A stretch of DNA of 64,000 nucleotides from an uncultured Cohaesibacter sp. (GTDB lineage Bacteria; Pseudomonadota; Alphaproteobacteria; Rhizobiales; Cohaesibacteraceae). A model generated the notes under the pieces. The model was not told where the DNA came from. It searched no databases and saw only the letters and a list, made by a program, of their open reading frames with translations. This document shows, one piece after another, positions 12,173-41,698 of this stretch (its first letter is position 1; each line of letters starts with the position of its first letter). Both the position numbers and the translations under genes were made by a program. The DNA is taken from positions 1,882,501 through 1,946,500 of the forward strand of contig NZ_OY781114.1 of NCBI RefSeq assembly GCF_963676485.1. Reading direction: 5' to 3'.

Positions 12173-12187
12173 TTAACGTGACGTTAA
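12173..12187. promoter_or_regulatory. Perfect palindrome TTAACGT-G-ACGTTAA
   Basis: A 15-base perfect palindrome in the dnaK upstream region, related in core (AACGT) to the dyads downstream of grpE. Likely a protein-binding site; identity unknown. Confidence 0.4.
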
Positions 12188-39434: not shown

Positions 39435-40031
39435 TTAGAACTCCAATCCCTGATGATCACGCAAATAGCCAAGCAATGGCAGCAGTGGCAGGCCGAGAAT
39501 GGTGAAATAGTCCCCTTGGATCTTTTCAAACAATTGCACGCCAAGCCCCTCAAGCTGATAGCAGCCAACGCTGGACCGCACCTGAGCACCAACCCGCGCC
39601 ATATAATGTCCTACCTCTTGTGGGCTCAGCGGCCGCATCGTGAGGATGGCTGTCGAAACATGGCTCCAGAGGATTTCCCCATCTTTTACACAGGCCACAG
39701 CCGAGTTCAATTGATGGCTATGACCAGCCAATTCCAATAATTGCCGCCGTGCAGCGGCATCATCTTCGGGTTTGTTAAAGCGTTTATCCCCAAAGCCCAA
39801 TGTCTGGTCGGCACCAATAACCAACGCACCGGGGTTGCGGCAGGACACTTCGGTGGCCTTCACCTGAGCAAGCAGGCTTGCAATATCGGCGGGCGATGCC
39901 CCCGCTTCCAAAAGGGGCTGTTCAGCTGCGCGTTCATCGATTTGCGCAACGGATGTATCAAATGAAAGGCCGGCATTGGACAATAGCGATGCCCGGGCCT
40001 GACTTTTGGAAGCAAGAATCAATGGAATCAT
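39435..40031 (-). CDS. maf: Maf-family nucleotide pyrophosphatase
   Basis: Maf proteins hydrolyse non-canonical or pyrimidine nucleoside triphosphates. The start MIPLILASKSQARASLLSNAG is the family N-terminus; IGADQTLGFGDKRFNKPED carries the catalytic Asp; QLEGLGVQLFEKIQGDYF is the C-terminal signature. About 198 residues from the ATG at 40031; the frame extends to 40124 without homology. First gene left of the origin. Confidence 0.93.
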   Translation of the reverse strand: MIPLILASKSQARASLLSNAGLSFDTSVAQIDERAAEQPLLEAGASPADIASLLAQVKATEVSCRNPGALVIGADQTLGFGDKRFNKPEDDAAARRQLLELAGHSHQLNSAVACVKDGEILWSHVSTAILTMRPLSPQEVGHYMARVGAQVRSSVGCYQLEGLGVQLFEKIQGDYFTILGLPLLPLLGYLRDHQGLEF

Positions 40032-40175
40032 GAATATGGTCCAACGTTGAAAGATGATCGAAGTTTTAGAGCAACGAGAGGGCAAACTAAACGGCTGTTG
40101 TGGATCTTTCCTATTCGTCTGCATTTACACAGGGTCAAAAGCCCTGAAATCCGCAATTTTCGTCACAAGACTGTC

Positions 40176-40190
40176 TTAATAGAGAGTTAA
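40176..40190. promoter_or_regulatory. CtrA box 1 in oriC
   Basis: TTAATAGAGAGTTAA, an exact TTAA-N7-TTAA. Confidence 0.7.
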
Positions 40191-40280
40191 GACCAGCAGC
40201 ATCAGCCGATTCTTCCCCAGGGGGTGTGGGCAACAGGGGATAAACAAGCCACTTTTCCCGAGTTCGGGTTTTCATGCCCG

Positions 40281-40295
40281 TTAACCATTTATTAA
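40281..40295. promoter_or_regulatory. CtrA box 2 in oriC
   Basis: TTAACCATTTATTAA, an exact TTAA-N7-TTAA, directly followed by TCCCCA. Confidence 0.75.
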
Positions 40296-40315
40296 TCCCC
40301 AAGCTCAGTTGAGCG

Positions 40316-40331
40316 TTAACTATTTTATTAA
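40316..40331. promoter_or_regulatory. CtrA box 3 in oriC (spacer of 8)
   Basis: TTAACTATTTTATTAA: both halves exact, but the spacer is 8, one base longer than consensus. Confidence 0.45.
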
Positions 40332-40348
40332 CACTCTGTTTACTGAGG

Positions 40349-40363
40349 TTAACAAACAGTTAA
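40349..40363. promoter_or_regulatory. CtrA box 4 in oriC
   Basis: TTAACAAACAGTTAA, an exact TTAA-N7-TTAA. Confidence 0.75.
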
Positions 40364-40374
40364 TGCACACATTG

Positions 40375-40389
40375 TTAAACTTTACTCAA
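40375..40389. promoter_or_regulatory. CtrA box 5 in oriC (one mismatch)
   Basis: TTAAACTTTACTCAA: correct spacing, second half TCAA instead of TTAA. Confidence 0.45.
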
Positions 40390-40666
40390 TTTCTGTCTCC
40401 ATCTCGTACCCAGATTTGACCACAGACAATTGCGCTGATTTCTGCCCATAATATGACTTGTCCCCACCGATCCATAAAAGTTACTAGAAGGTAACGACTG
40501 TTGAATCACAGTTGTTCAAGAGTCATTGTGGGCAATATGTGGGCCAAAAATAACTCCCACAATCCACGGTCTAAAAGAAGAAACAGATTCTAAAACTTAA
40601 ATATTTTATTAGGAAGTTTGTTGGGAATCGTGCTCAATTCGGACTGCAAACGGGGAGACAAAATTC

Positions 40667-41698
40667 GTGAACAATCGACGCTTGATGAACGTGCTCAATG
40701 GCCAGACTGAGAAAACCCCTCCAATCTGGTTGATGAGGCAAGCGGGAAGGTATCTTCCTGAATATCGTGCCACCAGGGCAGAGGCAGGAAGCTTTCTCTC
40801 CCTTTGCTACAATCCTGATTTGGCTTGCGAGGTAACCCTTCAACCTATTCGTCGATTTGGCTTTGATGCAGCCATCTTGTTTTCCGATATTCTCGTTATT
40901 CCAGATGCACTTGGGCGTTCGGTAAGATTTGTTCAAGGGGAAGGGCCGCAGCTCGATCCGATATCTCCCGAAGAAATCAAGGATCTTGATCCTTCCAAGG
41001 TTCTGGAAAATCTCTCTCCGGTTTTCGAGGCAATCGTAAAGATCAGATCAGAGCTACCGGGGGAAACCACTTTTCTTGGATTTTGTGGTGCTCCCTGGAC
41101 CGTTGCCACCTATATGATCGCTGGTCATGGCACACCGGATCAGGCACCGGCCCGTTTGTTTGCTCGTAAGCATCCTGAAGCTTTTCATGCCTTGATTGAT
41201 GTCCTGGTTGAAGCGTCGATCCTTTATCTGGTCAAACAGTTGAAATCAGGCGCCGACGCGGTGCAGATTTTTGATAGCTGGGCAGGCGTGCTGGATGATG
41301 CGCTGTATCTTTCTGCATCGCGTGATCCGATCGCGAAGATTGTTGCGGGCGTACGTGCGCACATTCCTGATGCCAAGATTATCGGTTTCCCGAAAGGGGC
41401 GGGCGTACGGCTCGTTGATTTTGTGGAGGCAACCGGAGTGAATGCTATCGGGCTGGATTGGACCGTGCCTTTGGACTGGGCGCGGGATGTCTTGCAGCCG
41501 AAGGTGGCTTTGCAGGGCAATCTGGACCCGACCTTGTTGATGTCAGATGAACGACATCTGGATGAAGCCATCGACAGGATCATGGTTTCCTGGAGCAATG
41601 GACCATTTATTTTCAATCTGGGCCATGGAATTTCTCCGCAGGGGAATATCGATCTGGTTCACCGCTTGATCAAACGCGTTCGTTCCTATAACGGCTAG
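40667..41698 (+). CDS. hemE: Uroporphyrinogen decarboxylase HemE
   Basis: Heme pathway enzyme converting uroporphyrinogen III to coproporphyrinogen III. The substrate-site motif WLMRQAGRYLPEYR is at residues 21-34, GFCGAPWTVATYMI in the middle, and the C-terminal NLGHGI(S)P motif reads FNLGHGISPQG. 343 residues from GTG, preceded by GGGGAG; an internal ATG six codons on is possible. It is the gene bordering oriC on the right, as in Caulobacter. Confidence 0.97.
   Translation: MNNRRLMNVLNGQTEKTPPIWLMRQAGRYLPEYRATRAEAGSFLSLCYNPDLACEVTLQPIRRFGFDAAILFSDILVIPDALGRSVRFVQGEGPQLDPISPEEIKDLDPSKVLENLSPVFEAIVKIRSELPGETTFLGFCGAPWTVATYMIAGHGTPDQAPARLFARKHPEAFHALIDVLVEASILYLVKQLKSGADAVQIFDSWAGVLDDALYLSASRDPIAKIVAGVRAHIPDAKIIGFPKGAGVRLVDFVEATGVNAIGLDWTVPLDWARDVLQPKVALQGNLDPTLLMSDERHLDEAIDRIMVSWSNGPFIFNLGHGISPQGNIDLVHRLIKRVRSYNG

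Follow-up and report, generated by a model that had tools for sequence, protein, structure and literature searches.

A conserved pair of probable CtrA boxes at the chromosomal origin of Cohaesibacter

CtrA of Caulobacter is autoregulated, its regulon includes genes of flagellar, chemotaxis and pilus type, and the Caulobacter origin, Cori, contains a hemE-side promoter that CtrA represses. According to a 2015 review (PMC4468827), CtrA is thought to exclude DnaA sterically at Cori, whose two G-boxes adjoin CtrA sites or are covered by them. The same review states that removing all five boxes perturbed the cycle only mildly in the laboratory, that the loss of the five sites mattered under antibiotic and nutrient pulses, and that CtrA sites had been unseen in origins outside Caulobacter, Rickettsia prowazekii possibly excepted (PMC4468827). 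Sinorhizobium meliloti is described as controlling initiation without CtrA at its origin (PMC4433202). CtrA at the origin was known for Caulobacter, reported for Hyphomonas and predicted for Rickettsiales. In the open-access literature we found no publication on CtrA in Cohaesibacter and no report of origin CtrA boxes in Hyphomicrobiales, the latter search covering some papers in part and few subscription journals.

The window is a 64-kb stretch (C1:1882501-1946500) of a Cohaesibacter genome (Hyphomicrobiales) of 5.08 Mb in two contigs; by HemE, its nearest named records belong to Cohaesibacter. Its cumulative GC skew has its minimum at 40473, inside the gap between a Maf-like gene and hemE, which are arranged as follows:

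39435..40031, minus strand: Maf-like protein gene, left flank (NCBIfam PRK02478, 268.6 bits, just under the cut-off of 269)
40032..40666, no strand: oriC gap between the Maf-like gene and hemE (cumulative GC skew minimum and flanking genes)
40667..41698, plus strand: hemE, uroporphyrinogen decarboxylase, right flank (TIGR01464, 397.6 bits, cut-off 302.95)

Among 63 slices of 20 kb, the skew was positive in all 35 of those that lie rightward of the gap as far as 4.40 Mb, and negative in 26 of the 28 from the other half of the chromosome, the two exceptions lying below +0.004. A second switch falls between 4.40 and 4.50 Mb, approximately opposite the gap. Because the skew flips sign inside the gap and again on the opposite side, the gap is almost certainly the chromosomal oriC; it is intergenic, adjoins hemE and lies at the skew switch, as is characteristic of the hemE-side origins of Alphaproteobacteria. 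A reading of the window from its sequence alone (the sequence-only reading) had placed the chromosome origin between maf and hemE and proposed GC skew as a check. The switch falls in the gap, and hemE, the Maf-like gene and nearby ParA/ParB-like genes also back this placement. The start of the gap needed correction: it had been set at 40125, but the Maf-like protein fits from the ATG at 40031 and not from 40124, which gives a gap of about 40032-40666.

To the left of the gap lie dnaQ, coaE and aroE, to the right rho, mnmG and the ParA/ParB-like genes; dnaA (C1:1782249) is 140 kb away. Besides dnaA, the genome has matches to the DnaA C-terminal domain above the cut-off at two other places (C1:73193-73387 and C1:4472632-4472823, both on the minus strand), where the open frames are 138 and 240 residues long. 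COG1806/PSRP (DUF299, PF03618), which we take to be the usual second flank of alphaproteobacterial origins, does not form the other flank here, and the window's genome has no PF03618 match at all. A match is lacking in 11 of 18 Cohaesibacter genomes, including the window's, whereas the remaining 7 and the two other Cohaesibacteraceae genera each have one; since the relatives that retain PF03618 have it at the origin, its absence reads as a lineage loss. Two of the 20-kb slices, C1:2000000-2019999 and C1:2250000-2269999, with GC contents of 0.41 and 0.39 versus 0.50-0.56 in the others, are probable genomic islands.

The gap contains the following words of the CtrA-box type (TTAA-N7-TTAA) or close to it:

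40176..40190, plus strand: putative CtrA box TTAATAGAGAGTTAA, exact; exact in 6 of 18 Cohaesibacter genomes
40281..40295, plus strand: putative CtrA box TTAACCATTTATTAA, exact, touching TCCCCA at 40296; exact in 9 of 18
40316..40331, plus strand: TTAA-N8-TTAA word, probably no box; found in 1 of 18, private to the window's genome
40328..40342, plus strand: putative CtrA box TTAACACTCTGTTTA, one mismatch; at most one mismatch in 18 of 18, exact in 3
40349..40363, plus strand: putative CtrA box TTAACAAACAGTTAA, exact; at most one mismatch in 18 of 18, exact in 14
40375..40389, plus strand: weak CtrA-like box TTAAACTTTACTCAA, one mismatch; one mismatch in 7 of 18, exact in none

The five sites of the sequence-only reading were all recovered (40176, 40281 and 40349 exact, 40316 with N8, 40375 with one mismatch); the box at 40328, one of the two most conserved, had been missed.

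When the 635-bp gap was dinucleotide-shuffled 20,000 times, no shuffle reached its three exact boxes (mean 0.036), and 0.13% reached its five N7 sites at one mismatch or fewer. The rest of the window holds a single further exact box, at 12173; when the window was shuffled 100 times, the number of exact boxes averaged 0.30, with a largest value of 3 and none reaching the observed 4. Exact boxes occur at 54 places in the 5.08 Mb of the genome, and among the 52 places located only the origin has three within 200 bp. The spacing of 7 is specific: these 54 places compare with 76 for spacings 8-10 combined, whereas the reversed control (AATT words) gives 98 versus 274 and no spacing-7 excess (Fisher P 0.001), from which it follows that about half of the 54 places exceed the background. 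Intergenic position was rejected as a test of box function, since TTAA words at almost all spacings fall mainly between genes in this genome and most of the slices had been picked around N7 sites; genome-wide counts were used instead.

A ctrA gene with a matching DNA-reading domain is present. Its product is the single genome match at E < 1e-60, scores 428 bits against the equivalog NF045991 (cut-off 350) and is 81% identical to a Caulobacter CtrA sequence; in the C-terminal part, 88 of 103 residues are identical to that sequence, including a DNA-binding core of 54 identical residues. ChpT and GcrA family matches are likewise present in the genome. On the promoter side of the located N7 sites lie 49 distinct genes, 40 of which were scanned; they include flagellin, FliF, FliX, FlgI, a flagellar rod/hook-type protein, three chemotaxis receptors, CpaB and RpoD. 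Genes for flagella, chemotaxis, pili or diguanylate cyclases make up 12 of 40 behind N7 sites versus 1 of 20 behind spacings 8-10 (P 0.024), and 9 of 40 versus 1 of 20 when the diguanylate cyclase (GGDEF) genes are left out (P 0.084). This enrichment, though modest, would agree with a CtrA regulon. Within 600 bp upstream of ctrA, an exact TTAA-N7-TTAA word was absent in 12 of the 12 Cohaesibacter genomes read; in the window's genome, this region carries two overlapping TTAA-N9-TTAA words. With a CtrA gene present, an excess at spacing 7 and conservation among relatives, the words at the origin are very probably CtrA boxes, as had been proposed.

Conservation was assessed in 18 Cohaesibacter genomes, the window's own and 17 more, which are kin to one another. 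Regarding the half-sites of the boxes at 40328 and 40349, 14 of 16 columns are invariant, compared with 108 of 560 columns in the gap alignment overall, whereas those of 40176, 40281 and 40375 have 0 or 1 invariant column of 8 each. These two boxes, whose starts are 21 bp apart, are the only ones universal in the 18 genomes; 40176, 40281 and 40375 are restricted to one or more subclades. The pair was chosen after viewing the alignment and the genomes are related, so that P values serve as guides only. The origin thus has several boxes conserved among relatives, two in all 18 genomes and up to three more in subclades. Alignment of the gap across relatives, suggested as a check by the sequence-only reading, came out in favour of the boxes, both members of the pair having at most one mismatch in 18 of 18. 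Its Caulobacter-like set of five fared less well: three members are confined to subclades, 40316 is private, and the conserved core is the 21-bp-spaced pair, one member of which was unlisted. The five-box layout of Cori, known here by description, does not recur, the five listed sites not being conserved in the 18 genomes.

The pair forms part of a larger unit:

40328..40369, plus strand: 42-bp composite of two putative CtrA boxes 21 bp apart and a DnaA-box-like word; a single copy in each of the 18 Cohaesibacter genomes
40361..40369, plus strand: DnaA-box-like word TAATGCACA, one mismatch to TTATNCACA; shares three bases with box 40349

Box 40349 runs into TWAATRCACA, which in its final nine letters differs from TTATNCACA at a single position and of which all columns are 18/18 except the W and R places. 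The window's own letters in TAATGCACA are matched, column by column, in 14, 18, 18, 18, 8, 18, 18, 18 and 18 of 18 genomes, the variable place being G or A. The predicted contact of boxes with DnaA-box-like words is seen in at least one overlap, that of 40349 with TAATGCACA; TCCCCA touches 40281, and the DnaA role of both words is predicted from their letters. The composite pattern was drawn from the same 18 genomes, and only its single copy and its absence elsewhere are informative: it was found in neither of the two other genera of the family and in none of the viral contigs scanned. Both of these genera have a box at about -316 of hemE, one exact and one with one mismatch. The 21-bp pair was rejected as an order-wide feature, a partner at -21 (at most two mismatches) accompanying 2 of 21 boxes outside Cohaesibacter, in two close relatives.

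Other elements of the gap are:

40208..40219, plus strand: GATTC (a GANTC word), then TCCCCA (40214); GATTC in 18 of 18, TCCCCA in 15-18 of 18 per column
40225..40243, minus strand: DnaA-like words TTGCCCACA (40225-40233) and TTATCCCCT (40235-40243), two mismatches each to TTATCCACA; partly conserved
40458..40466, plus strand: conserved word TTGTCCCC, two mismatches to TTATCCACA; at least 16 of 18 per column
40527..40580, no strand: block TGTGGG..TGTGGG..AAAAA..CCC.C.ATCCAC..AAGAA; conserved in the 18-genome alignment
40582..40631, no strand: AT-rich stretch, 74% AT, adjoining hemE; AT-richest 50 bp of the gap, without boxes

GANTC is presumably the CcrM methylation site; GATTC at 40208-40212 is invariant in 18 of 18 origins, and four other GANTC words in the gap vary. 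The gap (40032-40666) contains no strict DnaA box, the exact TTATCCACA having correctly been called absent, and no strict IHF site by either of two patterns. The conserved GATTC/TCCCCA (40208), TTGTCCCC (40458) and the block at 40527-40580 would be DnaA-binding and methylation elements, the block probably a DnaA-binding array, and 40582-40631 is a candidate unwinding element.

Beyond the genus, the 600 bp preceding hemE hold an exact spacing-7 box in 15 of 40 representatives (drawn from 43 other-genus genomes, of which one has no hemE match and two more were left out; two of the 40 fall in Cohaesibacter's own family and one inside the Rhizobium clade), compared with 0-2 genomes for every other spacing; dinucleotide shuffles gave a mean of 0.86 and a largest value of 3 in 200. 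Named Hyphomicrobiales have such a box in 6 of 76 cases (shuffles: mean 0.57, largest 3). Spacing 7 is preferred in Cohaesibacter (17 of 18 genomes), in the other-genus representatives (15 of 40) and in the named Hyphomicrobiales (6 of 76), with other spacings far lower and the reversed AATT control flat in the 40. Skew was checked in the window's genome only, and in the others the region upstream of hemE stands for the origin, so that these counts are a lead and no census. Outside the genus the boxes occupy positions -26 to -429 of hemE; those at -26, -72 and -94, close to hemE, may not belong to an origin. A YGC suffix follows 7 of these 21 boxes, versus 2 preceded by its complement, which is suggestive only.

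In a 134-row hemE tree, boxed rows number 5 of 71 in the Rhizobiaceae-Phyllobacteriaceae-Brucellaceae-Aurantimonadaceae clade and 16 of 45 among the remaining non-Cohaesibacter rows. The box label clusters (20 changes versus 35.4 when shuffled), on a tree that was made by a quick method, with 51 open forks and several long branches meeting, and that does not support counts of gains or losses. The contrast with other Hyphomicrobiales drawn by the sequence-only reading thus stands for the Rhizobium/Mesorhizobium/Brucella clade and is drawn too widely for the whole order, given the exact box in 15 of 40 other-genus genomes. Class-wide, an exact box is present at 2 of the 29 loci examined; these come from the 29 best matches among 92 non-own genomes in which hemE was matched, and 28 of them belong to other orders, in which hemE may not adjoin the origin. 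A record titled Bacillus subtilis SK6B4, whose hemE-origin region groups beside Phyllobacterium and Brucella, is mislabelled or contaminated.

The origin by skew, the boxes, their conservation, the single copy and a CtrA with the Caulobacter DNA-reading core were obtained directly. We consider the best explanation, at a probability of roughly 0.7, to be a Cohaesibacter oriC at which CtrA~P on the conserved pair, joined by extra boxes in a subclade, competes with DnaA. CtrA~P would bind the boxes at 40328 and 40349, and in the subclade also the extra boxes to the left; a distance of 21 bp, about two helical turns, would place both boxes of the pair on one DNA face. Occupancy of the pair and masking of the DnaA word are proposed after Cori: CtrA~P on the pair would cover TWAATRCACA, and because the inner box shares three bases with this word, binding by CtrA~P and by DnaA would be mutually exclusive at this place. 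DnaA would begin to assemble only after a fall in CtrA activity, and initiation would be blocked in one cell type or under stress. CtrA binding, DnaA competition and the block or timing of initiation are all suggested by analogy. A stress role may be as likely as a daily one, because in Caulobacter the loss of the five sites was mild in the laboratory and mattered under pulses. Counting against this explanation are a ctrA gene without its own upstream box, the modest regulon enrichment, a DnaA word one mismatch off, a 21-bp partner that is rare outside the genus, and the mild Caulobacter phenotype.

It is unlikely that the boxes are real CtrA sites serving transcription of hemE or the Maf-like gene, with their position in oriC a by-product of the gene neighbourhood. 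Both flanking genes face outwards, so any CtrA site in the gap is upstream of both, and Cori has its CtrA-repressed hemE-side promoter; the conserved pair, however, is separated by about 320 bp from hemE and by about 300 bp from the start of the Maf-like gene, far off the usual promoter positions, and overlaps the conserved DnaA-like word. The pair also persists where the left gene is PSRP and not Maf, and the lone sigma-70-like match in the gap, at 40423-40452, compares with 1.4 in shuffles. That the TTAA words are instead an AT-rich unwinding part, or sites of a protein other than CtrA (IHF or another OmpR-type regulator), is quite improbable. AT content is 66-70% over the stretch 40282-40381, and 40350-40362 match an IHF-like word at one mismatch, but the gap has no strict IHF match, its AT-richest 50 bp (40582-40631) is free of boxes, and a motif preferred at exactly spacing 7 in three genome sets, with reversed AATT flat in the 40, is in genome-wide excess and located before CtrA-type targets. 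Very unlikely, too, is a vestige of an ancestral CtrA-bound origin, with boxes that still bind and matter no more for initiation: box number does vary widely in the genus and the order, and S. meliloti controls initiation without origin CtrA (PMC4433202), but the pair stayed invariant in a gap that has otherwise mostly diverged (invariant columns: 108 of 560), which argues for purifying selection, and a subclade gained boxes.

Competition between CtrA and DnaA at the pair being the preferred reading, Cohaesibacter probably gates DNA replication much as Caulobacter does and unlike its best-studied relatives. Tentatively, and at slightly less than even odds, we propose that origin gating by CtrA is old or was repeatedly gained in Hyphomicrobiales and was largely lost in the Sinorhizobium/Agrobacterium/Mesorhizobium/Brucella clade, and that Cohaesibacter built a compact CtrA-DnaA switch, unlike the five-box Caulobacter design. 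The view that CtrA skips rhizobial origins has been shaped by models from a clade boxed in 5 of 71 rows; if the gating reading is true, this view stems from a derived clade, and the Cohaesibacter switch would consist of two adjacent CtrA dimers and a DnaA site that overlaps the final three bases. If origin boxes are common in other Hyphomicrobiales families, the timing and number of gains and losses of CtrA control become directly testable. Cohaesibacter and Sinorhizobium would then form a natural contrast, with regulator and neighbourhood alike and origin wiring opposite, and the single-copy composite is a precisely defined site at which base substitutions could test competition between CtrA and DnaA.

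Among the described systems, Rickettsia and Wolbachia share hemE-side origins with CtrA-box-like words, but belong to a distant order with very AT-rich genomes, and their sites are mostly in silico predictions (PMC1914354). Hyphomonas neptunium resembles Cohaesibacter in a CtrA ChIP-seq peak adjoining the origin (PMC7200025) and differs in belonging to Caulobacterales (PMC8116508) and in the one site reported (PMC7200025). Sinorhizobium meliloti and Brucella abortus are of the same order and have a hemE-side origin and CtrA; the S. meliloti origin, however, is described as lacking a CtrA motif and CtrA binding (PMC4433202), and Brucella CtrA is reported as not binding the origin (PMC2877005). 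Cori is alike in its hemE-side position, its several TTAA-N7-TTAA boxes, its AT-rich stretch and its low-match DnaA-box-like words that overlap or adjoin boxes (PMC1914354, PMC4468827), and unlike in having five high-affinity boxes, four of them conserved in freshwater Caulobacter (PMC4468827), versus two in Cohaesibacter. Compared with Cori, Cohaesibacter's own are the 21-bp pair fused to a specific TWAATRCACA and a Maf-like gene instead of COG1806/PSRP on the left.
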